Of a DNA stretch of 64,000 bases, positions 20,137-63,262 are shown in pieces (the first letter of the stretch is position 1; each line of letters opens with the position of its first letter). Made by a program: the position numbers and the translations under genes. This DNA is from Litoreibacter arenae DSM 19593 (GTDB lineage Bacteria > Pseudomonadota > Alphaproteobacteria > Rhodobacterales > Rhodobacteraceae). Under the pieces are notes generated by a model. That model did not search any database. It was not told where the DNA came from and worked only from the letters and a program-made list of their open reading frames with translations. The stretch spans positions 1,257,478 through 1,321,477 of the forward strand of contig NZ_KE557306.1 of the NCBI RefSeq assembly GCF_000442275.2, read 5' to 3'.

Positions 20137-20249
20137 TTTTTGTGTATCTTCAAACTGTTGGTGGCGGATGCTGCTACGCTGGAATACGCCCCAATATCCC
20201 CGAATTTGCCCCTCTACGACGACTCATTGCACACACAGCGCACACGAAA

Positions 20250-21338
20250 ATGGCCTCCATCACCAAGCTCCCCTCCGGTGCCTACCGGGTCCAGATCAGA
20301 CGAAAGGGCCGCTACGCGAGCGAGACGTTCCTCCGCCGCGACGACGCCCATCGTTGGGCCCGCCAGGCGGAGACCCGGGTCGATCAAGGGCTGGCGCCGA
20401 ACAAGTCGTCCGTATCCCGCCTCCAGACCTTTGGCGACCTCATCGAGCTTCATATAACCGATATGTGCGAGGTAGGGAAACCGCCGCGTCGCAGCAAGGC
20501 CGCCACGCTCACGACGCTCAAGCGCGATCTAGGCAAGGAGAAGATCGGCCACCTCGACCGGCAGAAGCTGATCGACTACGGCAAGATGCGCGCAGAGCAA
20601 GGTGCGGGTCCGGTGACTCTCGGGATCGATATCGGGGTGGTCAAGATGATCATAACCCACGCGGCAGCCGTGCACGGGCTCGATATCTCTCCGGAACCGG
20701 TTGATCTGGCGCGCGTCGCGCTCAAGCGTCTCGGCCTGATCGGCAAGGGCACAGAGCGGGATCGTCGCCCTACCATCGATGAGTTGAACCGCCTCTTCCG
20801 TTGCTTCGATGACAACGAACGCCTGACGACACCGATGACGCGGATCGTGAAGTTCGCGGTGGCCACCGCCATGCGGCTCGACGAGATCTGCCGCGTCGAA
20901 TGGACCGATCTCGACGTCGAGCGCCGGATGCTCATGATCCGCGACAGAAAGGACCCGCGCAACAAGACCGGGAACGACCAGCGGATCCCACTCTTCGCCG
21001 CCACGGGGTTCGATGCCTGGGCGTTGGTCACCGAACAGGCCAAGGAACTCGGGCAAGCTAGAGGTCGGATTTTTCCCTACAACTCGAGATCGGTCGGAAC
21101 CGCCTTCCGGCGCGCCTGCGTCGAGGTCAGCGTGAAGGACCTGCATTTCCACGATTTGCGCCATGAGGGCACAAGCCGCCTGTTCGAGGCCGGCTTCGCC
21201 ATCGAGCAAGTCTCGCTGGTTACCGGCCACAAGGACTGGAAGATGCTGCGCCGCTACACCCATATCCGCCCGGAAACGCTGCACCGGCTCGCCGCGTCGC
21301 GCGCCCCTTCCCCGCTTGAGCCCCGCGCAGCCGAGTGA
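20250..21338 (+). CDS. Tyrosine recombinase (site-specific integrase)
   Basis: A 362-residue integrase that would cut and join DNA at dusA. The N-terminal half has an arm/core-binding domain. The catalytic residues are Arg209 (ATAMRLDEICR), a lysine near 234-239, His301-x-x-Arg304 (HDLRH), His327 (TGHKDW) and Tyr336 (RRYTH). ATG 20250 (MASITKLPSGAYRVQIRRKG) is preferred: 36 further upstream codons to 20142 are not family-like and would enter the att region. The gene is divergent from dusA and faces into the element. Confidence 0.9.
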   Translation: MASITKLPSGAYRVQIRRKGRYASETFLRRDDAHRWARQAETRVDQGLAPNKSSVSRLQTFGDLIELHITDMCEVGKPPRRSKAATLTTLKRDLGKEKIGHLDRQKLIDYGKMRAEQGAGPVTLGIDIGVVKMIITHAAAVHGLDISPEPVDLARVALKRLGLIGKGTERDRRPTIDELNRLFRCFDDNERLTTPMTRIVKFAVATAMRLDEICRVEWTDLDVERRMLMIRDRKDPRNKTGNDQRIPLFAATGFDAWALVTEQAKELGQARGRIFPYNSRSVGTAFRRACVEVSVKDLHFHDLRHEGTSRLFEAGFAIEQVSLVTGHKDWKMLRRYTHIRPETLHRLAASRAPSPLEPRAAE

Positions 21339-40570: not shown

Positions 40571-40792
40571 CTATTCGATTTCCGAGTGTTCTTCGATCAG
40601 GTTCGCTGGCGTCACATCCAGATGCGCTGCGACCCGCTGCAGGGTTTGCAGTGTGACGTTTTGTTGGCCGCGCTCCATCGCGCTGACATGGGCGCGGTCG
40701 ACATCCATCGCCGCCGCCAACGCGGCCTGTGTCAGCCCGCGCAATTGGCGGTAGTGCTTGAGATTCCTTGCAAAAACAACGCGGATGTCCAT
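40571..40792 (-). CDS. XRE-family regulator, QseC-like
   Basis: A 73-residue protein that is nearly all helix-turn-helix (VVFARNLKHYRQLRGLTQAALAAAMDVDRAHVSAMERG, LQRVAAHLDVTPANLIEE). It is divergent from a DUF2285 gene. In ICEMlSymR7A the same layout is QseC, a repressor/activator that sets expression of the antiactivator QseM. That name is inferred from position and size. The gap to the divergent gene holds a perfect 12-base palindrome. Confidence 0.75.
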   Translation of the reverse strand: MDIRVVFARNLKHYRQLRGLTQAALAAAMDVDRAHVSAMERGQQNVTLQTLQRVAAHLDVTPANLIEEHSEIE

Positions 40793-40829
40793 CCGCGAGT
40801 AAAGAACCTATCGCGTATTTTGGTGCGAC

Positions 40830-40841
40830 GTATTATAATAC
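40830..40841. promoter_or_regulatory. Perfect palindrome in the qseC-qseM-like gap
   Basis: GTATTATAATAC is a perfect 12-base palindrome located 38 bases from the XRE start and about 90 bases before the DUF2285 start. It overlaps a TATAAT-like -10. It is a good candidate operator for the XRE protein. Confidence 0.5.
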
Positions 40842-40932
40842 TCATCTACAGTTTGACTGACCGCAATCCGACCTTGCACATGCAATCTGATGTGCTGTTA
40901 TGAGCCTTAACGCCCAACGGCGAGGGGAAATC

Positions 40933-41205
40933 ATGTCTGCCACCGGCACCACGCCGATCGCTGATCTCGCACCACAAAGCGATGACCTGACCGATTACGA
41001 CCACGCGCATATGACGCTGTATTTGCGTCTGTATGATGCCGCTGAAAGCGGTGCCAGCCTGCAGGAAGTCGGTGAGATTCTTTTCGGTATAGATGCCGCC
41101 AAAGAACCAGAGCGTGCCAAAAGGATGTATGACAGCCACCTCGCCCGCGCTCGTTGGATGACGGAGCACGGCTATCGCAAGCTGCTTGAGGGCGGTAACG
41201 GCTGA
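40933..41205 (+). CDS. qseM: DUF2285 protein, QseM-like antiactivator
   Basis: A 90-residue protein made of one DUF2285 domain: LTDYDHAHMTLYLRLYDAAESGASLQEVGEILFGID and SHLARARWMTEHGYRKLLEGG. QseM of ICEMlSymR7A is a small DUF2285 protein that binds TraR and FseA and blocks excision. The start at 40933 has a GAGGGGAA ribosome site; an in-frame ATG at 40900 lacks one. It is divergent from the XRE regulator and 131 bases upstream of the split fseA-like gene. Function is inferred from family and context. Confidence 0.75.
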   Translation: MSATGTTPIADLAPQSDDLTDYDHAHMTLYLRLYDAAESGASLQEVGEILFGIDAAKEPERAKRMYDSHLARARWMTEHGYRKLLEGGNG

Positions 41206-41336: not shown

Positions 41337-42081
41337 ATGACCAAAGATTGGCAAGACGAAGCGGCTTACAAGCATTTCGACAGTCTCGACCTGTCCGGGC
41401 TGGCCTGGGAATGCTTGCGCCGCAATTCCGACTATCGCGCCTATTACCCGCAAATGCGGGATGGATTGAAATCACCGGCCGCATGGGGGTTGCGATTTCC
41501 CGGTTGATCCGGACATCGACGCACCCAAAGCACCCGTGTTCTGGACGCCTTCGATCGCCCCGGCAGCGGTCGGGTATGCTGTGCCGGTCCCCGGCGGCGA
41601 CACCGCCGCGCCGCACATCGATGCAGATGATCTGACCGTCATCGGAACGCAGGACGGCTTGATGTATGTGCGCCTCGCAACAGGCGCGTTGCTCGTTCTG
41701 GATGCCAAGAACCTGCACCGGCCCCTCGGCATCCTGGTGCCGCTGGACGACCATTGGACGGCACGCATCAACTCGCTCGAGTCGCTCCGCGTGCAATTGC
41801 TTCATCACAAAAGATCCCCTCCGCCGCTGACGTCGCAGCAGCGACGGCGCATCCAGCTTGCATTGCGCACGCTCGACGCGCGCCGGGATCGTGCCAGCTA
41901 TCAGACAATCGCGGGGCATTTGTTCGGCGCAGAAGCTGTGTCCCGCGAGCATTGGAAGACCAGCTCCCTCAAGGCCCAGATCACCCGACTGTCGGCCCAT
42001 GGCACGCATCTGACCACCAAAGGCTATCGCTTTCTCCTTCTCGGCAAAGGACCCACGGGGCGCTCCAAGCCGCGCAAGTGA
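41337..42081 (+). CDS. fseA: FseA-like excision activator made by +1 ribosomal frameshift
   Basis: Two frames form one protein. The first (41337-41507) encodes 56 residues with a DUF6499-type start (DWQDEAAYKHFDSLDLSGLAWECLRRNSDYRAYY...WGLRF) and ends at TGA. The second runs in the +1 frame to 42081 and carries a DUF2285 domain (LTSQQRRRIQLALRTLDARR...TTKGYRFLLLG). Slippage on TTT at 41496-41498 to TTC gives RF-PVDPDIDAPKAPVFW, restoring the conserved WGLRFPVDP joint and a product of about 247 residues. This is the mechanism shown for FseA of ICEMlSymR7A. An ordinary frameshift mutation is the alternative. Confidence 0.8.
41496..41507 (+). promoter_or_regulatory. Candidate +1 programmed frameshift site
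   Basis: Zero frame reads CGA TTT CCC GGT TGA. A P-site tRNA-Phe can slip from UUU (41496-41498) to UUC (41497-41499). The next codons are then CCG GTT GAT. The zero-frame stop is only two codons further on. UUU-to-UUC slippage is what was measured for the msi172-msi171 fusion in ICEMlSymR7A. Confidence 0.72.
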
Positions 42082-42215
42082 TCACCGCGCGATCTCCGAA
42101 AATCGAACCCTCATCAGTCCCGGATCCTGTTGGCCTTTGGGGGTGACGTTCTCGCGCCGCGATCTTCGTCATCCCTTCCCATGGCCCGTCTGCGTTTTGA
42201 TGACCTCCGACAGCC

Positions 42216-42257: not shown

Positions 42258-42539
42258 ATGCCCGACCCAAATGAAGGACTACCGCCCCGCTACCTCAGAA
42301 CCCCGGAAGCCGCCCGATTTCTCGGCCTGTCTGGCCGTACGCTGGAGAAACACCGCACCTACGGGACCGGCCCGCGCTATTCGAAAATCGGCGGACGTGT
42401 CGTCTACGCGGTCGACGATCTGCAAGCCTGGGTCACGAGGGGCGAGAAGACCTCCACCTCGGACGAGACCGAAGATCGCGTTCTGCCTGCCAAACGCCAT
42501 GCAGCCGTTTCGCCGGCCTATCTGCGGCGGGGGCGCTGA
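42258..42539 (+). CDS. rdfS: RdfS-like excisionase (recombination directionality factor)
   Basis: A 93-residue winged-helix protein with the MerR/AlpA-type motif YLRTPEAARFLGLSGRTLEKHRTYGTGPRYSKIGGRVVYAVDDLQAW. RdfS pairs with the integrase to excise ICEMlSymR7A and is the target of FseA. Both its place directly after the fseA-like gene and its lead into the DUF2840-TraF-relaxase genes fit. The ribosome site GGAG precedes the ATG at 42258. It lies far (21 kb) from the integrase gene, as in the rhizobial ICEs. Confidence 0.82.
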   Translation: MPDPNEGLPPRYLRTPEAARFLGLSGRTLEKHRTYGTGPRYSKIGGRVVYAVDDLQAWVTRGEKTSTSDETEDRVLPAKRHAAVSPAYLRRGR

Positions 42540-42543
42540 GCCG

Positions 42544-43002
42544 ATGCAGACACGTGTCCACCTCACCTGGATCGAAGGGCGCATCGAGCGCTGGATCCGC
42601 TTCGGTCGGATGGCCGGGGAAACCATCCTGACGCGCACGGAAAAGCGCGTGGCCTTCGCCCCCGGCGCAATCTTCGCGCTCGTCCGCTGGTCGTCGAACG
42701 ACCACGGCACTGTTGAAAGCCGGATCGACATTCTGCGCGCCGTCGATGCAGGCGAGCCCTGCTCGACGGTGCCCTGTGTCACGCCAGGCGGAGAGCTTTT
42801 GCTGCGCCTCTCCGGCTGGCCCAAAGTCGAGGCGGCGCTTCGGTCCGTCGATATCGTGGAAAGCTATGGCATCGCGCCGGAAGATGTCTGCCCCGATCAT
42901 TGGCGGCACGTCCACAACCGCCTGACCGCGGCAATGGAGCCCCGTCCCTACACCCCTGCCCGGCATGCGGCATGGCTCAAACGACGCATGGTGACGACAT
43001 GA
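42544..43002 (+). CDS. DUF2840 family protein
   Basis: A 152-residue protein matching DUF2840, a family nearly confined to conjugative elements of alpha- and betaproteobacteria. Typical parts are LTWIEGRIERWIRFGR, FALVRWSSNDHGTVESRIDILRA and GWPKVEAALRSVDIVESYGI. Function is unknown. It starts four bases after the excisionase stop and overlaps the TraF-like gene by four bases, so the three are probably co-expressed when excision is turned on. Confidence 0.85.
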   Translation: MQTRVHLTWIEGRIERWIRFGRMAGETILTRTEKRVAFAPGAIFALVRWSSNDHGTVESRIDILRAVDAGEPCSTVPCVTPGGELLLRLSGWPKVEAALRSVDIVESYGIAPEDVCPDHWRHVHNRLTAAMEPRPYTPARHAAWLKRRMVTT

Positions 43003-43520
43003 GCGCGGCGGCCCCTCCCCTCCTCGCGGTCGGTTTGTCCCTCGGTCTGCTCGCAGCCGCACAGATCGACCGCGCACCGCGTCTTATCTGGAACGCCTCA
43101 GCAAGCGTGCCGGTCGGACTTTACGTTGTTCGAGCGTCAAACCCGCCATCGCTGGGCGATCTTGTTGCCGTGCGCCTGCCGGAAGACCTGTCATCCTGGG
43201 TGGTTGAGCGCGGTTATGTCGGTGCGGATACCTTGCTGTTGAAACGCATCGCGGCCGTCTCCGGCATGAACGTCTGTCGCGATTGTCTCGATATCACCCT
43301 CGACGGTACCGTTTTTGCCGAGGCAGCATCGGCTGACCAACAGGGCCGCCCGCTTCCCCGTTGGACGGGATGTGTCACGCTCGGCTCGGACGAGGTTTTC
43401 CTGCTCCTTGCTGGTGTCGCAAACAGCCTCGATGGACGCTATTTCGGGCCTTTGTCAGCGGACACGATCCTCGGGCGTGCCATCCCTCTTTGGACATTTG
43501 GAGGGGCGGCAGATGCGTAG
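42999..43520 (+). CDS. traF: TraF-like S26 family signal peptidase
   Basis: A 173-residue inner-membrane serine protease of the TraF type, which matures the conjugative pilin (in RP4 it cyclises TrbC). An N-terminal membrane anchor (LLAVGLSLGLLAAAQI) is followed by the catalytic serine in ASASVPVGLYVV and lysine in LLLKRIAAVSG. A C-terminal TLGSDEVFLLL...SLDGRYFGPL completes the fold. It overlaps its neighbours at both ends. TrbC (57168) is the likely substrate. Confidence 0.9.
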   Translation: MSAAAPPLLAVGLSLGLLAAAQIDRAPRLIWNASASVPVGLYVVRASNPPSLGDLVAVRLPEDLSSWVVERGYVGADTLLLKRIAAVSGMNVCRDCLDITLDGTVFAEAASADQQGRPLPRWTGCVTLGSDEVFLLLAGVANSLDGRYFGPLSADTILGRAIPLWTFGGAADA

Positions 43521-44217
43521 TCTTGAACGCGGTCACTGCCGTCAGCACGCGGGCGTCACGACCGCGCTTGTACTGATCCTCTGCACGCCGATCACCATGG
43601 CACCGTCCGCCGTGATCGCTCAGGACCGCAGTGTTCCAGCATCTGAGCAGCAAACCATCGACATCCATATCTCAGAAGCCGCGCGCTGGTTCGGCATCCC
43701 GCAGCCCTGGATCCGTGCCGTTATGGAGGTCGAGAGTGCGGGCAATCCGCGCGCGGTGAGCCACGCGGGCGCCATGGGGCTTATGCAGATCATGCCCGGC
43801 ACCTGGACCGAATTGCGCGCAGCCCACCGGCTTGGCGATGACCCCTTCGATCCACGCGATAACATCCTGGCCGGTACCGCCTATCTACGGCAGATGTACG
43901 ACCGGTTCGGGTCGCCCGGTTTTCTCGCGGCCTACAACGCTGGTCCTGCACGGTACCAGAACCACCTTGATACCGGACGCGCCCTGCCGCTTGAAACTCG
44001 CAATTACCTCACCATCCTCGCGCCACTCATCGCCGATGGGACCGACGTCGCGCGGGCAGTCAGCCGCCCGCACAGGACGGAGGACTGGCGCGACGCCTCG
44101 CTGTTCGTGGCAACGGCTGAGGCGGGTCAAACCCCGGGTGATGACACCCAACGGATTGCGTCTGACGCATCTCAATACGGCATCTTCGTGCCTCTCAGCC
44201 GGGGGCGAACGCCATGA
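43513..44217 (+). CDS. Lytic transglycosylase (SLT domain)
   Basis: A 234-residue exported enzyme that opens peptidoglycan locally for the mating channel. A signal segment ends near ALVLILCTPITMAPSAVIAQ. The SLT domain has the catalytic Glu in AVMEVESAGNPRAVSHAGAMGLMQIMPGTW and the YNAGPARYQNHL end motif. The start at 43513 overlaps the TraF-like gene by eight bases. VirB1-like genes in this position are normal for the family. Confidence 0.9.
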   Translation: MRSLERGHCRQHAGVTTALVLILCTPITMAPSAVIAQDRSVPASEQQTIDIHISEAARWFGIPQPWIRAVMEVESAGNPRAVSHAGAMGLMQIMPGTWTELRAAHRLGDDPFDPRDNILAGTAYLRQMYDRFGSPGFLAAYNAGPARYQNHLDTGRALPLETRNYLTILAPLIADGTDVARAVSRPHRTEDWRDASLFVATAEAGQTPGDDTQRIASDASQYGIFVPLSRGRTP

Positions 44218-44464
44218 TCCGCGGAATCGCACCATGGAGAAGTCCGGAATGCCCGGGCGCAGGAATGTGCCGGAGAGGGTCGACGCGCAGGGTCTCAACA
44301 GAAAGAGCGCGAGATAAAAGAGGTGCCGCAAGCGGACCTCAAGCTGTTGTTTCTCTGCGAGGATTTGCGCGGCACATCCAAGCTGCATGCCGCAGGACTT
44401 CATTTAAATTACTGATTTTGCGATATTCTTTGTGCGGCAGCATGTTCTGCGAGCGAGTGCGGCC
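44218..44464. other. Candidate origin of transfer region
   Basis: A 247-base gap before the relaxase holds a hairpin GAGGT-g-CCGC-aa-GCGG-ACCTC (44320-44340) and an inverted repeat GCGGCA...TGCCGC (44369-44374 and 44388-44393). An AT-rich tract follows (TTTAAATTACTGATTTTGCG, from 44404). oriT usually lies just upstream of the relaxase gene. A weak 84-codon frame here (44214-44468) was not called. Confidence 0.4.
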
Positions 44465-46222
44465 ATGACCCGGCGCGACGACGACCTTCGTATCCGGCCC
44501 GGACGTATCCGCGACGGCGGCAGAACCTCAAAGCAACCGACACGTTTCGTCAACGAGGTCATGCGAGCTGCGCGGAAATCCGGACATACCGGCTATCGTA
44601 TCGGCGCGGGCAGCACGCGCTCCGGCAACGCCGCTTTCGGGCGTGGACGGTTTGCCCGAACCGCCAAAGGTCTGACCCGCACGTCCCGGCGCGTCGTCGT
44701 GAAGGCTCGCATCGTACGGCACCAGGGCAAGCGCTTTCGCTCCGCGCCCATGGCCAAACATCTCGGCTACCTGCAGCGCGACGGCGTCGGGCAGGACGGG
44801 CGCGACGCAGACTTGTTTGGGCCTGAAAGCAATGATCTCGACCGGGGCGGCTTTGCGGCGCGCTGCGAAGACGACCGGCATCATTTCCGGTTCATCATCT
44901 CGCCGGAAGACGCGGGCGATCTCGAGGATCTGCACGCCTTCACCCGGGATCTGATGGCCCGAGCCGAACGGGATCTCGGCACAACACTCGACTGGGTCGC
45001 CGTCGATCACTGGAACACCGACAATCCGCATATCCACATTTTGGTGCGTGGAAAGGCCGACGATGGCCGCGATCTCGTCATCTCGCGTGACTACATCAGC
45101 CGGGGGCTTCGAGCGCGCGCAGAAGACCTCGTACAACTGGAACTGGGCCCCCGCAGCGCGCGGGAGATTTCCCAAGCGCTCGAAACGCAGGTCACAGCGG
45201 AACGCTGGACTGATCTGGACCGGGGCCTACGATCCCTGGCGGACGATCATGCCGGCATCGCCGACCTGCGGCGCGGCACGCCGGAGCCCCGCGATCCGGC
45301 GCTGCGCCGCTTGATGATCGGGCGTGCCCAGACACTGGAGAGGCTCGGGCTGGCCGAACAAATCGCCCCTGCCGTCTGGGAGTTGAAACCGAATGCTGAA
45401 GACACTCTACGAGAGCTTGGGATGCGCGGCGACATCATCAAACGGATGCACCGCGCCATGGGCGCCGAGCGCCACCGCGCGGCGGTGGATTTCGCCATCG
45501 AAGGCACGCCCACCGCGCCAATCCTCGGGCGGCTCGTGGAACGCGGCTTTCATGACGACCACGCCGGCACCGGCTACGCGATCATCGACGGCGTTGACGG
45601 TCGCGTACATCACCTACGCTTCCAGGATCTCGATGCGACCGGCGACACACCGCAAGGTGGCATTGTCGAAACCCGGCTTTGGACAGGAAAGACCGACCGA
45701 GAACCACAACTGTCGCTTGTCGGTCGTTCCGATCTATCGCTGGCCGCCCAGATCGAGGCGGATGGCGCCACCTGGCTCGACCGCCTGCATCTTGCCCGGG
45801 ACCGCGCGCCGCTGAGTGGTGCCGGATTTGGCGCAGAGGTTCGCCAAGCATTGGAGCGGCGCGCGGATCACCTAGTCGCCGAAGGCCTCGCCCGACGGCA
45901 AGGTCAACGGGTCACCTTTGCCCGCGATCTGCTGGCCACCCTGCGCAACCGCGAACTGGACGCCATCGCTCAAGACCTCAGCACACAAACCGGCCTCCCC
46001 CGTTACAAGCCGACCGAGGGCGAGCCCATCGCAGGGACGTTTCGCCAACGCCTCGATCTCGCATCGGGCCGCTTCGCCATGATCGACGATGGTCTCGGCT
46101 TCTCGCTCGTCCCCTGGACCCCGCAACTCGAACGCCATCTCGGCCAGACCGTCACAGGCACGATGACGCCCGGCGGCGGGATCGACTGGAGCCTCGGGCG
46201 CAAGCGCGGGCTGAGCCTCTGA
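44465..46222 (+). CDS. rlxS: DUF3363-type relaxase (RlxS/VirD2-like)
   Basis: A 585-residue relaxase that nicks oriT and pilots the transferred strand. Metal-binding histidines are His182 (AVDHWNTDNP) and His189/His191 (PHIHILVRG). A tyrosine in HLGYLQRDG (about Tyr102) is the likely nucleophile, and the HHFRFIISPEDAGDL segment is typical. The C-terminal half is the DUF3363 region (GYAIIDGVDGRVHHLRF, RFAMIDDGLGFSLVPW). It starts at ATG 44465, 17 bases upstream of traG after its stop. In ICEMlSymR7A the equivalent is RlxS. Confidence 0.88.
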   Translation: MTRRDDDLRIRPGRIRDGGRTSKQPTRFVNEVMRAARKSGHTGYRIGAGSTRSGNAAFGRGRFARTAKGLTRTSRRVVVKARIVRHQGKRFRSAPMAKHLGYLQRDGVGQDGRDADLFGPESNDLDRGGFAARCEDDRHHFRFIISPEDAGDLEDLHAFTRDLMARAERDLGTTLDWVAVDHWNTDNPHIHILVRGKADDGRDLVISRDYISRGLRARAEDLVQLELGPRSAREISQALETQVTAERWTDLDRGLRSLADDHAGIADLRRGTPEPRDPALRRLMIGRAQTLERLGLAEQIAPAVWELKPNAEDTLRELGMRGDIIKRMHRAMGAERHRAAVDFAIEGTPTAPILGRLVERGFHDDHAGTGYAIIDGVDGRVHHLRFQDLDATGDTPQGGIVETRLWTGKTDREPQLSLVGRSDLSLAAQIEADGATWLDRLHLARDRAPLSGAGFGAEVRQALERRADHLVAEGLARRQGQRVTFARDLLATLRNRELDAIAQDLSTQTGLPRYKPTEGEPIAGTFRQRLDLASGRFAMIDDGLGFSLVPWTPQLERHLGQTVTGTMTPGGGIDWSLGRKRGLSL

Positions 46223-46239
46223 GCAGAAAGGACATCACC

Positions 46240-48234
46240 ATGAGCCGTCAGGACACGTCATCGGCCACCAAGATCCTCTGGGGCCAGATCATCATCGTCA
46301 GCATCGTGGCGCTGCTCTTCGTCTGGGCGGCGACACAATGGGTCGCGTTTCGTCTGGGGTTCCAACCCCAGCTTGGCGCACCTCTCACCGCCCTGTTCGG
46401 CCTGCCGATCTATCGCCCGTGGCAGGTCTTCACCTGGTGGTACTGGTACGACGCCTACGCGCCCCGCGTCTTCATGGAAGGAGCCGCGATCGCCGGCGCA
46501 GGCGGGATCGCCTCCATTGCCGTTGCGATCTTGCTATCGGTCCTGCGGGCGCGCGAGGCGAGCGATGTGACAACCTATGGCTCGGCCAGATGGGCAGGCC
46601 TCAAGGATATCATCGCCGCCAGGCTGTTCGCGGAAGACGGGGTCGTACTGGGCCGTCTCGACAAGCGCTACCTCCGGCATGACGGCCCGGAACACGTGCT
46701 GTGCTTCGCCCCCACCCGTTCCGGCAAGGGCGTCGGCCTGGTGATCCCAAGCCTGCTGACCTGGCCCGGCTCCGCGATTGTCCACGACATCAAGGGCGAG
46801 AACTGGCAGCTGACGTCCGGATGGCGGGCGCGGTTCGGGCGCGTCCTGCTCTTCGATCCGACCAACGGGGCCAGCGCCGCCTACAATCCGCTGCTCGAGG
46901 TCCGCCGCGGCGAGCGCGAGGTGCGGGACGTGCAAAACATCGCGGATATCCTCGTCGATCCCGAAGGCCAGCTCGAGCGGCGGAACCATTGGGAGAAGAC
47001 CAGCCATTCCCTTCTGGTCGGCGCGATCCTGCATGTTCTCTATGCCGAGAAGGACAAGACACTGGCAGGCGTCGCCGCCTTCCTGTCTGATCCGCGACGT
47101 CCCATCGCCGCCACGCTGACTGCGATGATGCGCACGCCCCATCTCGGTGATCGCCCGCATCCTGTTGTCGCTCAGGCCGCGCGCGAGCTGCTGAACAAAT
47201 CCGAGAACGAACGCTCCGGTGTTCTCTCCACGGCCATGTCCTTCCTCAGTCTCTACCGCGACCCCGTGATCGCCGCCGTGACCCGACGCTGCGACTGGCG
47301 GATCGATGATCTCGTCTCGGATGATCGGCCGCTCACCCTCTACCTCGTGGTACCCCCATCGGACATTTCCCGCACGAAACCGCTGGTCCGGCTGATCCTG
47401 AACCAGATCGGCCGCCGTCTGACCGAAGACCTGCACAACACCAACTGCAAGCACCGCCTTCTGTTCATGCTCGACGAGTTCCCCGCCCTCGGGCGCCTCG
47501 ACTTCTTTGAAAGCCAACTGGCCTTCATGGCGGGCTACGGTCTCAAGGCGTTTCTGATCGCCCAGTCGCTGAACCAGATCGAGAAGGCCTATGGCCAGAA
47601 CAACGCCATCCTGGACAACTGCCATGTCCGCGTCGCATTCGCGACCAATGACGAGCGCACGGCGAAGCGCCTGTCCGACGCCCTCGGCACCACAACCGAA
47701 CTGCGCGCGATGAAGAACTATGCCGGGCACCGTCTGTCGCCCTGGCTCGGACATCTGATGGTCTCGCGCCAAGAAACCGCCCGCGCCTTGCTGACCCCCG
47801 GCGAGATCATGCAACTGCCGCCCGACGACGAAATCATCCTCGTGTCGGGCGCGGCCCCGATCCGGGCGCAGAAAGTGCGGTACTTTCGCGACGCGCAATT
47901 GCTGGCGAGAATCCAAAAGCCGCCTATCGTCGAAGCATCTGCAGCAATAAGCACAGCGGGAACCGATGATTGGAGCAGTCTTCAGCCGGTCGCACGGCCT
48001 CAGGAAACTGCCACGAACAAGCCCGCTGACGATGCAGATGGCGGCATCCGACGAGAGCCTGAAATCCCAGAACATGAAGATGTGGCGCCTGAGATGCCGT
48101 TCCCGCGCGAGGAATTCGCCGCCCTCGAAGACGAACCTGACGACGAGGCCCAACGCGCCCGCGCCATGCAGACCCGGTTCCGCACCGTGGCGCGTCAAGC
48201 GGCCCTCGATCCGGATGATGGCATCGATCTGTGA
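46240..48234 (+). CDS. traG: TraG-type coupling protein (VirD4 family)
   Basis: A 664-residue inner-membrane ATPase that brings the relaxase-DNA complex to the mating channel. Two N-terminal spans (about 12-33 and 84-103) precede the Walker A motif APTRSGKGVGLV (about 158-168). Later come LFMLDEFPALGRLDFFE (Walker B), AYGQNNAILDNCHVRVAFAT and the TraG end LPPDDEIILVSGAAPIRAQK. Length is normal. It follows the relaxase at once and precedes a ribbon-helix-helix gene by nine bases. Confidence 0.93.
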   Translation: MSRQDTSSATKILWGQIIIVSIVALLFVWAATQWVAFRLGFQPQLGAPLTALFGLPIYRPWQVFTWWYWYDAYAPRVFMEGAAIAGAGGIASIAVAILLSVLRAREASDVTTYGSARWAGLKDIIAARLFAEDGVVLGRLDKRYLRHDGPEHVLCFAPTRSGKGVGLVIPSLLTWPGSAIVHDIKGENWQLTSGWRARFGRVLLFDPTNGASAAYNPLLEVRRGEREVRDVQNIADILVDPEGQLERRNHWEKTSHSLLVGAILHVLYAEKDKTLAGVAAFLSDPRRPIAATLTAMMRTPHLGDRPHPVVAQAARELLNKSENERSGVLSTAMSFLSLYRDPVIAAVTRRCDWRIDDLVSDDRPLTLYLVVPPSDISRTKPLVRLILNQIGRRLTEDLHNTNCKHRLLFMLDEFPALGRLDFFESQLAFMAGYGLKAFLIAQSLNQIEKAYGQNNAILDNCHVRVAFATNDERTAKRLSDALGTTTELRAMKNYAGHRLSPWLGHLMVSRQETARALLTPGEIMQLPPDDEIILVSGAAPIRAQKVRYFRDAQLLARIQKPPIVEASAAISTAGTDDWSSLQPVARPQETATNKPADDADGGIRREPEIPEHEDVAPEMPFPREEFAALEDEPDDEAQRARAMQTRFRTVARQAALDPDDGIDL

Positions 48235-48672: not shown

Positions 48673-49034
48673 TTTAATGTTTCAGGAGCGCTATCGGTAG
48701 CTGAACTGCTGAAGCATACTCGGATCGAGATCACCCTACGCGATGCCGTTCAGATCGATTTGCCGCTGCGAGCCGGGGTGAAGGTTGTGGGCGAGATGCT
48801 GAAGCCACGGCTGAAAGTCGTGGGTGGTCGCGAGGATGCAGGCTCACTGTCCACCATCGACTTCTGACAGTTAATCCCGTCAACCTGAAGTTTCATCCCG
48901 ATATGCGCCTGTGCGGCGTTGATTGCGGCCGTTAACCGTTGCCGAACACCTGACTTCCCGTCTAAGGTCTGCAAACTAAAGATTTATTCGATTTGCTGCT
49001 CTTGTGGCGTTTCGCGCAGTCGGGAAACATCTCA
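48673..49034. other. Junction of backbone with the restriction-modification insert
   Basis: A 362-base stretch with no good gene. The copG frame stays open for 64 codons past its stop (to 48867), with GALSVAELLKHTRIEITLRD and VVGEMLKPRLKVVGG, but this matches no recognised family and has no start. It may be a remnant of displaced DNA. The last 150 bases are lower in GC and hold the hsdR promoter. Confidence 0.45.
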
Positions 49035-51497: not shown

Positions 51498-51500
51498 CCA

Positions 51501-56187: not shown

Positions 56188-57171
56188 ATGACCGTTACCC
56201 CTTTCAAAACCGAGACGTCTTCCCGCGGCGCACGCATGCTGCGCACCGCCCTTGGGCCTGGCATCGCCGCCTGGCTCGAGGATGTCGGCGTCATCGAGGT
56301 GATGCTGAACCCTGACGGGCGGCTCTGGGTTGACCGGCTGGCCGATGGGCTGAACGACACAGGCGCAGTTCTGTCCCATGCTGATGGCGAACGCATCATC
56401 CGGCTTGTCGCGCATCATGTCGGCGCGGAAGTCCATCCCGCGGCCCCGCGTGTCTCCGCAGAATTACCGGGAAGCGGTGAACGCTTCGAGGGCCTGCTGC
56501 CGCCAGTGGTTTCTGCTCCCACATTCGCCATTCGCAAGCCCGCCGTCGCGGTGTTCACCCTTGAGGAGTATGTCTCCGGCGGCATTTTCCCCCCGGACGC
56601 CGCAGATCACCTCCGCGAAGGGGTCACCAGACGGGCCAACATCCTCGTCGCGGGCGGGACCTCGACCGGCAAGACGACCCTGACCAATGCGCTGTTGGCG
56701 GAGGTCGCCAAGACCTCAGACCGCGTTGTCCTGATCGAGGACACGCGCGAGCTGCAATGCCTGACCCCCAACCTCGTGGCTCTCCGCACCAAGGACGGGG
56801 TCGCGACCTTGTCCGATCTTGTTCGCGCGTCGCTGCGGCTGCGGCCTGATCGCATCCCCATCGGCGAGGTGCGCGGCCCCGAAGCGCTGGACCTACTCAA
56901 GGCCTGGGGCACCGGCCATCCAGGCGGGATCGGCACGATCCACGCCGGGTCCGCCATCGGCGCGCTGCGGCGGCTCGAACAGCTGATTCAGGAAGCGGTG
57001 GTCACCGTCCCGCGCGCGTTGATCGCAGAGACCATCGACCTGATCGCCGTTCTGTCCGGACGGGGGGCCGAGCGTCGCCTCTCCGAGTTGGCGCGTGTCA
57101 CCGGCCTGACCGCCTCCGGCGATTACGCCCTCACCCCCCTTTTCCCACCAACACAAGGAAGCCACCCATGA
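56188..57171 (+). CDS. trbB: Conjugative transfer ATPase TrbB
   Basis: A 327-residue cytosolic secretion ATPase of the VirB11/PulE type. Walker A is [16 protein letters not shown] (about residues 155-170). The Asp box is [11 protein letters not shown], and the His box [20 protein letters not shown]. It powers pilus assembly and transfer. It is the first gene of a trb operon in the standard order, and its stop overlaps trbC (ATGA). Confidence 0.94.
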
Positions 57172-57494
57172 CCCTTCTGCCATCCTTTCGCAAAGCCCTT
57201 GGCGCAACCGCGCTCGGCCTCGTCGTTTCCGCCCTGCCTGAGCCGGCGCTCGCCGCCGGGTCCGGCATGCCATGGGAAGCCCCCCTGCAAACCATCCTCG
57301 AGTCGATCGAAGGCCCGGTCGCCAAGATCGTCGCCGTGATCATCATCATCGTGACCGGGCTGACGTTGGCCTTCGGCGACAGTTCGGGCGGGTTCCGGCG
57401 GCTGGTGCAGATCGTCTTCGGGCTGTCCATCGCCTTCGCGGCCTCGAGCTTCTTTCTCTCCTTCTTCTCCTTCGGCGGCGGAGCGCTGATCTGA
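57168..57494 (+). CDS. trbC: Conjugative pilin precursor TrbC
   Basis: A 108-residue small membrane protein. A signal-like N-terminus ends near ALPEPALAAG. Two hydrophobic spans follow (VAVIIIIVTGLTLAFG and RRLVQIVFGLSIAFAASSFFLSFFSF). TrbC is the pilin subunit, processed and in RP4 cyclised by TraF; a TraF-like peptidase is encoded at 42999. It overlaps its neighbours. Confidence 0.9.
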   Translation: MTLLPSFRKALGATALGLVVSALPEPALAAGSGMPWEAPLQTILESIEGPVAKIVAVIIIIVTGLTLAFGDSSGGFRRLVQIVFGLSIAFAASSFFLSFFSFGGGALI

Positions 57495-57763
57495 TGGAGA
57501 ACCCCACCGACATTCCCGGCTATTTCGCGCCGGTGCACCGGGCCCTGATCGATCCGATCCTGCTGGCCGGTGCTCCCCGAACCATCGCCATTGCCAATGG
57601 CACCCTGGCGGCCGCCATCGGTCTTGGCCTCAGGCTCTGGCTTGTTGGCCTGCTCTTCTGGCTCGTCGGCCACCTCCTCGCAGTCTGGGCCGCGAAGCGA
57701 GACGCACAGATCGCTGAAGTGGCGCGGCGGCATCTCCGTTACCCGTCCTGGTTCGGGGTCTGA
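57494..57763 (+). CDS. trbD: Mating-pair formation protein TrbD
   Basis: An 89-residue VirB3-like inner-membrane protein. A polar start (PGYFAPVHRALIDPILLAGAPR) is followed by hydrophobic stretches (ANGTLAAAIGLGLRLWLVGLLFWLVGHLLAVW). It starts within the trbC stop and ends just before trbE. VirB3 proteins work with the VirB4 ATPase encoded next. Confidence 0.88.
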   Translation: MENPTDIPGYFAPVHRALIDPILLAGAPRTIAIANGTLAAAIGLGLRLWLVGLLFWLVGHLLAVWAAKRDAQIAEVARRHLRYPSWFGV

Positions 57764-57767
57764 GCCG

Positions 57768-60248
57768 ATGATGCGTCTCGCCGAATACCGCTCCAAATCC
57801 GCCTTACTGGCCGATTTCCTGCCCTGGGCCGCGCTTGTCGCGCCCGGCGTCATCCTGAACAAGGACGGCAGCCTGCAACGCACCGCGCGGTTTCGGGGGC
57901 CTGATCTGGATTCCGCCACGCCCGCCGAACTGGTCGCCACATCAGCTCGGTTCAACAGCGCGCTGCGACGGCTTGGCTCTGGCTGGGCCGTCTTCGTGGA
58001 AGCGCAGCGTGTACCAGCGCAGGACTACCCCGCCTCCGAGTTTCCCGATCCTGTCTCCGCCCTCGTCGATGCCGAGCGGTGCGCGCAATTCGAAGAAGCG
58101 GGCGCGCATTTCGAGAGCGCGTATTTTCTGACGTTGGTCTGGATGCCGCCCGCTGACAACGCGAGCCGCGCCGAAGGCTGGCTGCTCGAAAACGCCCCGG
58201 ATCGCAGCACCAAGCCTCAGGATCTCGTCTCCAGCTTTGTCGGCCGCGCCCACCGGCTGACCGATCTGCTTGACGGGTTCATGCCGGAGATCGCCTGGCT
58301 CTCCGATGAAGAGACCCTGACCTACCTGCATTCAACCGTTTCGACCCGGCGCCAACGCCTCCGCGTGCCGGAGGTACCGATGCATCTGGACGCTGTGCTG
58401 GCCGATGATCCTCTTGTGGGTGGACTGACACCCCGGCTCGGAGCCGCGCATCTCAAGACCTTGACCATCATTGGCCTGCCGAGCGCAACATGGCCCGGGC
58501 TGCTCGACGAGTTGAACGCGCAGGGTTTCGAGTATCGCTGGTGCACGCGCGCGATCTGCCTCGACAAGACGGATGCCGCCCGGGTGTTCACCCGTATCCG
58601 CCGGCAGTGGTTCGCCAAGCGCAAGTCGGTCGCCGCGATCTTGAAGGAGGTGATGACCAACGAAGCCTCGACCTTGCTCGACAGCGACGCGGCCAACAAG
58701 GCGGCGGATGCAGATGAAGCGCTACAGGAACTCGGCGCCGATGTCGCGGGTGCTGCCTATGTCACCGCCACGATCACCGTCTGGGACGAGGACGCGGCAG
58801 CCGCCGAGGCCAAGCTCAAGGCCGCCGAGAAGATTGTGCAGGGACGGGATTTCACCTGCATCCCGGAATCTCTGAACGCGCTCGAGGCCTGGCTCAGCTC
58901 CCTGCCCGGCCATCTCTACGCAAATGTCCGTCAGCCCCCGATGTCGACGCTGAACCTTGCCCATATGATCCCGATCTCGGCGGTCTGGGCAGGGCCGGAT
59001 CGGAACGACCACCTCGACGGCCCGCCGCTGTTCCACGCCGAAACCGACGGCACAACGCCGTTTCGATTCTCCACCCATGTGGGCGATGTCGGCCATACCT
59101 TGATCGTCGGCCCGACCGGAGCGGGCAAATCGGTGTTGCTGGCACTCATGGCGCTGCAGTTCCGACGCTATGTCCCCGCGCAGGTCTTCGCCTTCGACTT
59201 CGGCGGTTCGATCCGCTGCGCCACGCTCGCCATGGGCGGGGACTGGGAGAACCTGGGCGATACACTGACCGACGAAGAACCAGCGTTGCAGCTGCAGCCG
59301 CTGGCCGGGATCAAAGAGGCGACGGATCGTGCCTGGGCGCAGGACTGGCTCGCGGGAATCCTTGGACGGGAAGGCGCGACGATCGACCCAGGCGCGCGGG
59401 ACCATCTCTGGTCCGCTTTGACCTCGCTCGCTTCAGCCCCACGCCAGGAACGCACGCTGACCGGCCTCTCGGTCCTGCTGCAATCGACAGAACTCAAACG
59501 CGCGCTCAAGCCCTTCTGCCTCGGCGGGCCTTTCGGGCGGCTGCTCGATGCCGAGACGGAGGAACTGGGCAGCGCCGATATGCTGGCCTTCGAGACCGAA
59601 GGGTTGATCGGCTCGGCGGCGGCCCCCGCCGTCCTGGCCTATCTCTTCCATCGGATCGAAGCCCGACTCGACGGGCGGCCCACGATGATCCTGATCGACG
59701 AAGGCTGGCTTGCGCTCGATGACGCCAATTTCGGCGGGCAGCTGCGCGAATGGCTGAAGACGCTTCGGAAGAAGAACGCTTCGGTGATCTTCGCCACCCA
59801 GTCACTGGCCGATATCGACGGGTCCCTCATCGCACCCGCCATCGTCGAGAGCTGCCCCACGCGCATCTTCCTTCCCAACGAGCGCGCCTTCGAACCCCAA
59901 ATCGCTCGAATCTACAAGAACTTCGGGCTGAACGACCGTCAGATCGACATCGTCGCCCGCGCGACACCGAAGCGCGACTACTACTGCCAGTCGCGGCGGG
60001 GCAACCGGCTCTTCTTGCTGGGGCTCGGCGAGGTGGCGCTGGCCTTCACCGCCGCCTCCTCCAAGGCCGATCAGGCCGCAATCAGCGATCTGCTCGCCAC
60101 CCATGGCCGGGACGGCTTTGCCGCCGCCTGGCTGCGCCATCGCGGCCTTGATTGGGCCATCGACCTGCTCGGGCCCGACATCGCACCAGCCGATCCGACA
60201 CCCCCTCACCCTGAATTGAAGGAGACAGAATATGACCCGCAACCCTGA
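57768..60248 (+). CDS. trbE: Conjugative transfer ATPase TrbE (VirB4 family)
   Basis: An 826-residue ATPase of the mating-pair channel. Walker A is VGPTGAGKSVLLALMAL (about residues 447-463). Walker B is MILIDEGWLALDD, with FATQSLADIDGSLIAPAIVESC as the glutamine motif. The N-terminal half is the CagE/TrbE/VirB region. The start was taken at the double ATG (57768/57771). The stop overlaps the trbJ start by 17 bases. Confidence 0.94.
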   Translation: MMRLAEYRSKSALLADFLPWAALVAPGVILNKDGSLQRTARFRGPDLDSATPAELVATSARFNSALRRLGSGWAVFVEAQRVPAQDYPASEFPDPVSALVDAERCAQFEEAGAHFESAYFLTLVWMPPADNASRAEGWLLENAPDRSTKPQDLVSSFVGRAHRLTDLLDGFMPEIAWLSDEETLTYLHSTVSTRRQRLRVPEVPMHLDAVLADDPLVGGLTPRLGAAHLKTLTIIGLPSATWPGLLDELNAQGFEYRWCTRAICLDKTDAARVFTRIRRQWFAKRKSVAAILKEVMTNEASTLLDSDAANKAADADEALQELGADVAGAAYVTATITVWDEDAAAAEAKLKAAEKIVQGRDFTCIPESLNALEAWLSSLPGHLYANVRQPPMSTLNLAHMIPISAVWAGPDRNDHLDGPPLFHAETDGTTPFRFSTHVGDVGHTLIVGPTGAGKSVLLALMALQFRRYVPAQVFAFDFGGSIRCATLAMGGDWENLGDTLTDEEPALQLQPLAGIKEATDRAWAQDWLAGILGREGATIDPGARDHLWSALTSLASAPRQERTLTGLSVLLQSTELKRALKPFCLGGPFGRLLDAETEELGSADMLAFETEGLIGSAAAPAVLAYLFHRIEARLDGRPTMILIDEGWLALDDANFGGQLREWLKTLRKKNASVIFATQSLADIDGSLIAPAIVESCPTRIFLPNERAFEPQIARIYKNFGLNDRQIDIVARATPKRDYYCQSRRGNRLFLLGLGEVALAFTAASSKADQAAISDLLATHGRDGFAAAWLRHRGLDWAIDLLGPDIAPADPTPPHPELKETEYDPQP

Positions 60249-61014
60249 CTGCCCCGCCCGGCCCTTGAAACTCGCAGCGGCACTGATGGCCAGCGCCCTC
60301 GTCCTGACACCGGTCCTGACGACACCGGCCCAAGCCTTCTTCTTCGGGGGCGGCGGGCGGATCGTCTACGATCCACAGAACCACGCCGAAAACATCCTCT
60401 CGGCCGCCCGCGCGCTGGAGCAGATCAACAACCAGATCGCCCAGATACAGAACCAGGCGCAAATGCTGATGAACGATGCGCTGAACCTTGCGAACCTGCC
60501 GCATTCCTCGCTGGCGGAGCTGCAGGGAGCCATCGGCGAAACCCAGCGACTTCTGGCCGATGCCCAGAGCCTCGCCTTCGACGTCGCCACCATCGAACAG
60601 GCTTTCGCGCAGGACTACGGTGCTGCCGCAGCCCAAGGTGATTTCGATGCGATGATCGCCGGTGCGCGCGAGCGGTGGGAAACCTCCGTCGCGAGCTTCG
60701 AGGACAGCTTGCGCGTGCAGGCCGGGGTCGTCGGCAATATCGACGGCGCGCGCACGCAGATGGACGCGCTCATCCGCGAAAGCCAAGGAGCCGTTGGGGC
60801 CCTGCAGGTCGCGCAGGCTGGCAACCAGCTGCTCGCATTGCAGTCGACACAGATTGCCGATCTGACCGCCGCCATTGCGGCGCAGAACCGCGCCGAAGCG
60901 CTTGAAGCCGCCCGGATCGCCTCCGCCGAGGCGCAGGGCCGCGAGAACCTAGCCCGGTTCCTCGATTACGGCGGCGGTTACACGCCTGGCACCGTCCGCT
61001 TCTTCGGGGATTGA
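60232..61014 (+). CDS. trbJ: Conjugative transfer protein TrbJ (VirB5-like)
   Basis: A 260-residue exported protein with a signal peptide (LAAALMASALVLTPVLTTPAQA). A long coiled-coil region follows (ILSAARALEQINNQIAQIQNQAQMLMND). TrbJ contributes to pilus assembly and in RP4 is next to the entry-exclusion protein TrbK, as here. Confidence 0.9.
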   Translation: MTRNPDCPARPLKLAAALMASALVLTPVLTTPAQAFFFGGGGRIVYDPQNHAENILSAARALEQINNQIAQIQNQAQMLMNDALNLANLPHSSLAELQGAIGETQRLLADAQSLAFDVATIEQAFAQDYGAAAAQGDFDAMIAGARERWETSVASFEDSLRVQAGVVGNIDGARTQMDALIRESQGAVGALQVAQAGNQLLALQSTQIADLTAAIAAQNRAEALEAARIASAEAQGRENLARFLDYGGGYTPGTVRFFGD

Positions 61015-61018
61015 GCTC

Positions 61019-61288
61019 ATGGCCCCTAAAACTCCGCAAACCCTGCGCCTGATCGCCTTCGGCATCGGCGGTCTCGCTGCCCTCGCCGCCGCTGTGGAAC
61101 TCACCCGGACGATCCTGCCCACCGACACCGGGCGTATGGTCAGGGATGACGCCTTGCGCAGCACCCTCGCGCATTGCCGTGACCTGACGCCCGAAGACTA
61201 TGCCACCGACACCGAATGCCGCGCCGCCTGGGAGGCGGCCCGGCAGCGCTTCTTCGATCTGGCTCCAGAGCCGGCCGGGACGGAGTGA
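61019..61288 (+). CDS. trbK: TrbK-like putative entry exclusion protein
   Basis: An 89-residue protein with one N-terminal hydrophobic span (LIAFGIGGLAALAAAVELT) and a short periplasmic tail holding two cysteines (AHCRDLTPEDYATDTECRAAW). This is the alternative TrbK form common in alphaproteobacterial trb operons. It lacks the lipobox of RP4 TrbK. It would stop uptake of a second copy of the element. Confidence 0.75.
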   Translation: MAPKTPQTLRLIAFGIGGLAALAAAVELTRTILPTDTGRMVRDDALRSTLAHCRDLTPEDYATDTECRAAWEAARQRFFDLAPEPAGTE

Positions 61289-61292
61289 GGCA

Positions 61293-62579
61293 ATGGGCGG
61301 CGTCAGTGTCATCGACCGGTTTCTAGAGGTCTTCGCCTCCTATATCGATTCCGGTTTCGGCCTTCTGGGTGGCGACGTCGCCTTCCTCGCCACCACGCTG
61401 ATCGTCATCGACATCACGTTGGCTGCCCTCTTCTGGGCATGGGGTACGGATGACGACATCATTGCACGGCTGGTGAAAAAGACCCTCTTCGTCGGGGTCT
61501 TCGCCTATATCATCGGCAACTGGAACACGCTGGCCCGGATCGTCTTCGACAGTTTCGCGGGCCTTGGCCTGGTCGCCACCGGCGGCACGATCTCCGCCGG
61601 GGAGCTCCTCCAGCCGGGGCGCATCGCGCAGGTCGGGCTCGAGGCGGGCCAGCCGATCCTCGCCTCCATCGCCGACCTCTCCGGGTTCGTCGCCGTCTTC
61701 GAGAACTTCATTCAGATCGGGATCCTGTTCTTCGCATGGTTGGTGGTTCTGCTCTCGTTCTTCATCCTCGCCATCCAGCTTTTCGTCACCCTAATCGAAT
61801 TCAAGCTGGCCACGCTGGCGGGCTTCATCCTCGTGCCCTTCGGCCTCTTCAACAAGACCGCCTTCATGGCCGAACGTGTGCTGGGCCTCGTCATTTCTTC
61901 GGGCGTCAAGGTTCTGGTGCTGGCCGTGATCGTCGGTATCGGGTCGACCATCTTCAGCGAGTTCACCGCCGGATTCGCGGGTGAACCCACGATCAACGAC
62001 GCCATGTCGGTGGTCCTTGGCGCACTGGCGCTCCTCGCCCTCGGTATCTTCGGCCCCGGCATCGCCAATGGCATCGTTTCGGGCGGGCCGCAGCTCGGTG
62101 CAGGCGCCGCAGTCGGCACCGGTATCGCCGTGGGCGGAGCCGCGGTCGCCGGTATGGCCGGGACCCGGATGGCCCTTGGCACTGGCGGTGCCGCCCTGCG
62201 TGGTGCCAGTGCGGTCGGCAGCGGAACCGCCACTGCATACCAGCTTGGCGCCGCCTCGCGCAGCACGGCGATGGGCAAGTCTGTCGGCGGTGTGGCCGCT
62301 ATCGGCAAGACCGGTGCCGTCGCCGCGTTCAGCCCGCTCCGACGCGCAATCTCGGAAGGCGCGCAGTCCGGTGCCCGCGCAGCCTATGCCGCTACCGGCG
62401 GCCGCATGGCGGGTGGCGCCCTGCCCTCCCCGGCCAATGACGGTCCGCCCGACTGGGCGCGCCGGATGAAGCGCCAGCAATCCCTTCAACACGGCCTTTC
62501 CACTGCCGCTCATGTCGTCCGCTCTGGCGATCATGGCGGGGGCGGCACGGTCGTCAGCCTCTCCGAAAGGTCCTCCTGA
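61293..62579 (+). CDS. trbL: Mating-pair formation membrane protein TrbL
   Basis: A 428-residue VirB6-like inner-membrane channel protein. Five to six spans lie in the first 260 residues (for example LATTLIVIDITLAALFWAW and FILAIQLFVTLIEFKLATLAGFILVPFGLF). A glycine- and alanine-rich low-complexity region follows, with a cytosolic tail. It overlaps the trbF start by one base. Confidence 0.92.
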   Translation: MGGVSVIDRFLEVFASYIDSGFGLLGGDVAFLATTLIVIDITLAALFWAWGTDDDIIARLVKKTLFVGVFAYIIGNWNTLARIVFDSFAGLGLVATGGTISAGELLQPGRIAQVGLEAGQPILASIADLSGFVAVFENFIQIGILFFAWLVVLLSFFILAIQLFVTLIEFKLATLAGFILVPFGLFNKTAFMAERVLGLVISSGVKVLVLAVIVGIGSTIFSEFTAGFAGEPTINDAMSVVLGALALLALGIFGPGIANGIVSGGPQLGAGAAVGTGIAVGGAAVAGMAGTRMALGTGGAALRGASAVGSGTATAYQLGAASRSTAMGKSVGGVAAIGKTGAVAAFSPLRRAISEGAQSGARAAYAATGGRMAGGALPSPANDGPPDWARRMKRQQSLQHGLSTAAHVVRSGDHGGGGTVVSLSERSS

Positions 62580-63262
62580 TGTTCCGACGCCCCAGTGTCC
62601 GCTACGGTACCACGCCCGAGCCCGTCACCCCCTACCAGAAGGCCGCTCAGGTCTGGGACGAGCGCATCGGCTCCGCTCGTGTGCAGGCCCGCAACTGGCG
62701 CCTTATGGCGATGGGCTGCCTTGCCCTGTCCGCCGGGCTCAGCGCGGCGCTCACCTGGCAATCGACGCGCAGCAGCGTCGTCCCCTACGTGGTCGAGGTC
62801 GACAATCTCGGTGCGGCGCAGGCCGTTGCCCCGGCGCTGGCCGAGTATCGCCCGACCGATCCGCAGATCGCCTGGCATCTTGCCCGCTTCGTCGAGCATG
62901 TCCGGCAGGTCCCGGCCGACCCGATCGTTCTGCGCCAGAACTGGCTGCGCGCCTACGATTTCGCCACGGATCGCGGCGCTGTCGCGCTAAACGACCATGC
63001 CCGGGTGAACGATCCCTTCGCGCAGGTCGGCGACACACAGGTCTCCGTAGAAGTCTCAAGCGTCATCCGCGCCTCGGACACGAGCTTCCGCATCGCCTGG
63101 ATCGAGCGGCGCTACGAAAACGGTCAGCTCGCCACAACCGAACGCTGGACCGCCATCCTGACCGTCGTGATCCAGCCGCCGCGCGATGCGGAGCGCCTGC
63201 GGGCCAACCCGCTTGGCGTCTATGTCCATGCCATCAACTGGTCGAGGGAGAACGCCCAATGA
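62579..63262 (+). CDS. trbF: Mating-pair formation protein TrbF (VirB8-like)
   Basis: A 227-residue bitopic inner-membrane protein. A cytosolic start (VTPYQKAAQVWDERIGSARVQARNWRL) is followed by one span (MAMGCLALSAGLSAALTW) and a periplasmic NTF2-like domain (WIERRYENGQLATTERWTAILTV). It is a structural part of the type IV mating channel. The stop overlaps trbG by four bases. Confidence 0.93.
   Translation: MFRRPSVRYGTTPEPVTPYQKAAQVWDERIGSARVQARNWRLMAMGCLALSAGLSAALTWQSTRSSVVPYVVEVDNLGAAQAVAPALAEYRPTDPQIAWHLARFVEHVRQVPADPIVLRQNWLRAYDFATDRGAVALNDHARVNDPFAQVGDTQVSVEVSSVIRASDTSFRIAWIERRYENGQLATTERWTAILTVVIQPPRDAERLRANPLGVYVHAINWSRENAQ

Follow-up and report, generated by a model that had tools for sequence, protein, structure and literature searches.

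The gene at positions 41337–42081 of the window (the whole 64-kb stretch of Litoreibacter arenae DNA analysed here) is, judging from its sequence, very probably an intact fseA homologue with the conserved +1 frameshift site already known from this family. FseA-type +1 frameshifting has already been published, and the L. arenae gene is a well-preserved further example of it; what the present analysis adds is a local circuit that is complete without any quorum-sensing genes of the element's own, and a difference in codon choice that sets split homologues apart from continuous ones. A preliminary description of this DNA had proposed a split fseA-like gene with a +1 joint at TTT-C, and both its coordinates and its frames were right: the first frame matches PF20109 and the second, which stays open to 42081, matches PF10074 (Table 1).

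In the frame of the ATG at 41337, positions 41484–41507 read TGG GGG TTG CGA TTT CCC GGT TGA. This frame covers the whole PF20109 profile (1–60), that is, a complete DUF6499 domain ending WGLRF-PG-stop, and the N-terminal AWEFLRRN-like motif of the FseA family is present in it as AWECLRRN. When TTT-C (41496–41499) is read as one step, the sequence continues as ...WGLRF-PVDPDIDAPKAPVFW... and is open to the stop at 42079–42081. The joined product has 247 residues and a DUF6499-DUF2285 architecture, and a peptide predicted from it is WGLRFPVDPDIDAPK. The first 12 codons of the +1 frame (41500–41535) include no start codon, the first in-frame candidate being the GTG at 41536. The 14-mer GGGGTTRCGATTTC has one occurrence in the entire 3.68-Mb genome, at the fseA joint.

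Table 1. Features of the fseA region and of the surrounding mobile element (positions in the window)
Feature	Position	Strand	Evidence or remark
Tyrosine integrase, candidate RdfS partner	20142..21338	+	
qseC-like Xre/Cro-type HTH repressor, divergent from qseM	40571..40792	-	PF01381 E 9e-15; position conserved
qseC-qseM intergenic promoter/operator, TCGCGTATTTTnnTGCGACGyAyTATAAT	40811..40839	+	deeply conserved
qseM-like antiactivator, lone DUF2285 without DUF6499, net charge -5	40900..41205	+	PDB 7uqt QseM E 4.6e-19
fseA 5' frame (msi172-like), DUF6499 domain with AWECLRRN motif, 56 aa, TGA end	41337..41507	+	PF20109 E 1.6e-16
+1 frameshift signal TGGGGG-TTG-CGA-TTT-C	41484..41499	+	slip codon TTT 41496-41498, skipped C 41499
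Frame-0 stop TGA	41505..41507	+	third codon past TTT
fseA 3' frame (msi171-like), middle domain and DUF2285 DNA-binding domain, predicted to be reached by +1 shift	41500..42081	+	PF10074 E 7.1e-24
Predicted FseA box, TGACGT-16 bp-TCGTCA inverted hexamers between fseA and rdfS	42144..42171	+	conserved in relatives
rdfS homologue, recombination directionality factor, HTH_17	42258..42539	+	PDB 8dgl RdfS E 1.9e-9
traF-like S26 peptidase ORF	42900..43520	+	PF10502 E 4e-20; true start probably downstream of 42900
Lytic transglycosylase (SLT) ORF, msi107 position	43315..44217	+	PF01464
Relaxase, rlxS-like, DUF3363/MobA-VirD2	44432..46222	+	PF11843 E 7e-89; PF03432 E 4e-5, just below curated cut-off
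ORF with VirD4/TraG coupling protein, domain from residue 305	45679..48234	+	PF02534 E 9e-102
Type I restriction-modification genes HsdR, HsdM, HsdS, complete-looking, between coupling protein and conjugation genes	48993-54664		
Mating-pair-formation genes: T2SSE ATPase, TrbE, TrbL, VirB8	56188..63262	+	

Conservation of the slip site and of the preceding codons

The survey combined a DUF6499 profile search of about 1080 genomes with 80 named relatives from a species-level collection, further homologues coming from the genome sample. Frames were classified by separate N- and C-terminal profiles, and no codon was demanded at the joint. Among genomes across the class, TTT-Y was found in exact register in 140 of the 142 homologues split at a +1 offset (137 with TTT-C and three with TTT-T), the 142 genes being records and not independent lineages, as some genomes are present in both collections; the non-redundant set comprises 103 genes. 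Since so many homologues hold TTT-Y in the same register, the split is not due to chance, and the conservation of UUU-C that the preliminary description had suggested looking for among relatives is borne out. One of the two exceptions (L049) has TTT-C one codon later, whereas the other (L038) has TGT and is apparently decayed. In the three genes with TTT-T (L037, L046 and L158), the shift would be from UUU to UUU, with no Watson–Crick pair gained.

Both domains were found in 78 of the 80 named relatives in a first BLAST pass; 74 of these 78 genes are split at the +1 offset, all with TTT-C, and four are continuous. The six closest relatives, from Fluviibacterium, Brevirhabdus, Sulfitobacter, Roseivivax, Marivita and Poseidonocella (85–98% protein identity), are all split alike. 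Viral contigs scanned with the C-terminal part of FseA and with alignment A1 contained no relatives.

Codon choice ahead of the slip codon is strongly biased in the 103 non-redundant split genes, where GGG accounts for 74 of 102 glycines (15% same-gene background), TTR (TTG or TTA) for 71 of 96 leucines (against 13% in the rest of these genes) and CGA for 58 of 69 arginines (12% same-gene background). The binomial p values for these biases, 1e-39 to 1e-43, are overstated, as the genes were taken as independent. The slip site and the preceding codons are absent or rare in the continuous homologues (n=27; CGA 0/14, TTR 7/25, GGG 7/27), and the comparison of split with continuous genes gives Fisher p values, with kinship ignored, of 1.7e-9 for CGA, 3.8e-5 for TTR and 2.6e-5 for GGG. 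The signature GGG-TTR-CGA-TTT-Y tells split from continuous homologues and would aid annotation pipelines in calling such genes correctly. This contrast is added here, but it may partly repeat the 2015 PNAS work of Ramsay and co-workers, according to which a +1 slip of tRNA-Phe from UUU to UUC reportedly fuses msi172 and msi171 into FseA in ICEMlSymR7A.

The simplest reading of the site is likewise a P-site slip of tRNA-Phe from UUU to UUC (UUU to UUU in the three relatives with TTT-T). A search for a stimulatory RNA structure downstream of the site was negative (z of -0.15 in the window; mean z between -0.1 and -0.2 across about 125 genes), and stimulators were therefore deduced solely from the codon bias, which points to CGA in the E site and the Shine–Dalgarno-like UGGGGG as candidate slip helpers. 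The UGGGGG sequence has been noted in published FseA work (PMC10359603).

Selection on both frames and alternative readings of the split

Between the window gene and its six closest relatives, dN/dS is 0.17 upstream of the slip site and, in the +1 frame, 0.19 downstream of it; when the second half of the gene is read in frame 0, dN is well above dS. Residues F54, P55, P58, A62 and W69 are invariant across the joint in alignment A1, and three of them (P55, P58 and A62) are conserved within the 12-codon stretch that lacks a start ahead of GTG 41536. A separately started second protein would have no need of them, which bears on the possibility that the two frames encode two cooperating separate proteins, the second initiated internally, e.g., at this GTG. 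Even with an in-frame GTG present and with a homologous Azorhizobium pair treated as separate genes (PMC9601964), we consider such an arrangement very unlikely, since the +1 frame has no start between the slip site and 41536, some single-frame fused relatives retain the same joint residues (WGLRF-AADP) and published models show DUF6499 and DUF2285 as one fold (PMC10359603). It should be noted that the Azorhizobium caulinodans pair, rihF1b-rihF1a, was stated to be frameshift-free, each part having its own start and stop (PMC9601964), and that such genes are often misannotated.

The one-base offset and the early stop are also the usual signs of decay, and the family does include a few decayed copies (L038, as well as L014 and L148 with odd offsets). 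A frameshifted pseudogene or an assembly error is nevertheless even less credible here, as the identical offset at TTT-C recurs across many genera, in over 130 records, both frames are under purifying selection, and this is the sole fseA in the genome, with its partner genes all intact; the preliminary description, which had called decay very unlikely, is supported on this point. Transcriptional slippage, whereby a stuttering RNA polymerase and not the ribosome would restore the frame, would yield the same protein but deserves almost no credence, as the T run at the slip site is only three long, much longer runs being normally needed by the polymerase, and the conserved feature is the upstream codons and not run length.

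The past of the frameshift was traced on a protein tree that includes 91 split and 29 continuous genes (a quick, unrooted tree with several long branches, on which gain and loss are indistinguishable). The split or continuous state requires 11 changes on this tree, at least four of them forced by well-supported branches, versus 26 expected from shuffled labels. So few changes indicate that the frameshift is old and stable, with occasional switches; the well-supported group that holds the L. arenae gene comprises 19 genes, all of them split. The existence of continuous homologues implies that FseA function in general does not require frameshifting. The preliminary description had named continuous homologues with one base fewer in closely related elements as evidence that would speak against a programmed shift. 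Such genes were found, in distant relatives only, and these lack the signal as well. One group of continuous fseA genes (L099, L101, L103 and L174, two of them from Caulobacter; 98% SH-aLRT) is without the slip signal and provides a natural control for frameshift-free function.

Regulatory neighbours and the mobile element

Beyond the split gene covered by the preliminary description, the adjoining parts include a qseM-like gene, a qseC-like gene, an FseA box and rdfS. According to charges computed from sequence, the QseM-like DUF2285 protein is acidic (net -5), whereas the C-terminal DUF2285 part of FseA is basic (net +15 over the last 115 residues). The qseC-qseM intergenic motif is near-invariant in 13 aligned sequences. 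The predicted FseA box, matched by geometry, agrees with the published arrangement of inverted hexamers with a 15–16 bp spacer upstream of rdfS (PMC10359603), and no second box occurs in the 64-kb window at up to three mismatches. The gene order qseC-qseM-fseA-rdfS-traF-rlxS is widely recurrent among relatives. Sequence and comparison establish these homologies, the gene order and the box, as they do the split, its conservation and the selection on both frames.

Among six marine genera (L064-L069), RdfS is 98–100% identical, with FseA and QseM up to 15% different; the RdfS identity suggests either that there was recent movement or that RdfS is under unusually strong constraint. An ORF just upstream of the regulatory module (38353-39750, minus strand) reads like an IS transposase.

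No match to luxI/luxR (PF00765/PF03472) was found near the element on its contig, and the traR/traI (luxR/luxI) pair of ICEMlSymR7A-type quorum-sensing control is absent from the element. The luxI/luxR homologues of the genome are either distant (the nearest LuxR match at >400 kb) or placed on a different contig, and their presence elsewhere makes host quorum sensing a possible input. The locus thus looks like a whole QseC-QseM-FseA-RdfS circuit without element-borne luxI/luxR, an arrangement that recurs in many alphaproteobacteria. The preliminary description had presented frameshifting in a marine ICE without quorum-sensing genes as notable: the lack of luxI/luxR on the element was upheld, but FseA homologues and the +1 site have already been published throughout alpha-, beta- and gammaproteobacteria, and the site is conserved in about 61% of 4709 FseA homologues (PMC10359603). 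Control of ICE excision by a +1 frameshift would seem to be the normal state in marine Rhodobacterales elements, with QseC-QseM-FseA-RdfS as a recurring compact module, and a module without element-borne quorum-sensing genes offers a simpler system in which to test the roles of the frameshift and of QseM by themselves.

In two Roseicyclus loci (L070 and L071), a LuxR-type gene (2008-2736) is located ~2.3 kb upstream of fseA, and QseM and QseC are divergent there (33–35% identity). As to the limits of the L. arenae element, a search for flanking direct repeats from the integrase region to 40 kb beyond the window returned only 15–17-base matches, none of them convincing, and the element ends were not found; no tRNA gene is present within the window or the following 40 kb.

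Proposed mechanism and comparison with known systems

The FseA frameshift, QseM binding, the FseA box and RdfS control have all been published (PMC10359603, PMC11963761, PMC5882170, PMC8627217). In ICEMlSymR7A, a +1 frameshift fuses msi172 and msi171 into FseA, and QseM binds its DUF6499 part, i.e., the msi172 part alone (PMC10359603). From the published ICEMlSymR7A work we infer slippage, DNA binding, antiactivation and excision control for the L. arenae element. The majority of ribosomes would stay in frame 0 until the TGA, giving the 56-aa DUF6499 peptide, and a minority would slip with UUU in the P site, where tRNA-Phe would re-pair from UUU to UUC, as is reported for ICEMlSymR7A. We propose that CGA, a weakly decoded codon that the ribosome has just left, promotes the slip, perhaps together with the Shine–Dalgarno-like UGGGGG upstream, whose exact role is likewise our suggestion. 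The slipped ribosomes would go on in the +1 frame to produce the 247-aa DUF6499-DUF2285 protein. By analogy with ICEMlSymR7A, the fused FseA would bind the inverted hexamers at 42144-42171 and turn on rdfS and the downstream transfer genes, upon which excision and conjugation would begin; the QseM-like protein would block FseA via its DUF6499 part, and the QseC-like repressor would decide whether QseM is produced.

Because QseM binds the msi172 part alone, the frameshift of this quorum-sensing-free lineage could also belong to a ratio sensor, in which the abundant unshifted 56-aa DUF6499 peptide serves as a decoy that soaks up QseM. We regard this reading as conceivable, though unlikely; if true, translation of fseA would itself titrate its antiactivator and set the threshold for excision.

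The L. arenae gene, as recognized from its sequence, resembles FseA of ICEMlSymR7A (Mesorhizobium japonicum R7A) in being a DUF6499-DUF2285 split gene with a +1 frameshift site, and the two elements share an inverted-hexamer box with a 16-bp spacer at rdfS, a QseM counterpart and the rdfS-traF-msi107-rlxS order. Unlike in R7A, where fseA belongs to a TraR/AHL-activated traI2-msi172-msi171 operon, here it directly follows qseM, with no luxI/luxR on the element. The QseM/QseC switch of ICEMlSymR7A has a similar counterpart in the lone negatively charged DUF2285 protein and the small HTH repressor encoded divergently beside it, the region between the two genes being conserved, but the TraR target is absent from the element and only FseA is left as a visible target. 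In E. coli prfB, a +1 slip occurs with a Shine–Dalgarno-like G-rich stretch just upstream, and the in-frame UGA is needed as the A-site codon. The fseA slip site has such a stretch in the same place, whereas its slip codon is followed by CCC; the frame-0 stop is located 2 to 236 codons past TTT in the relatives (median of 18) and therefore is not the trigger, unlike that of prfB.
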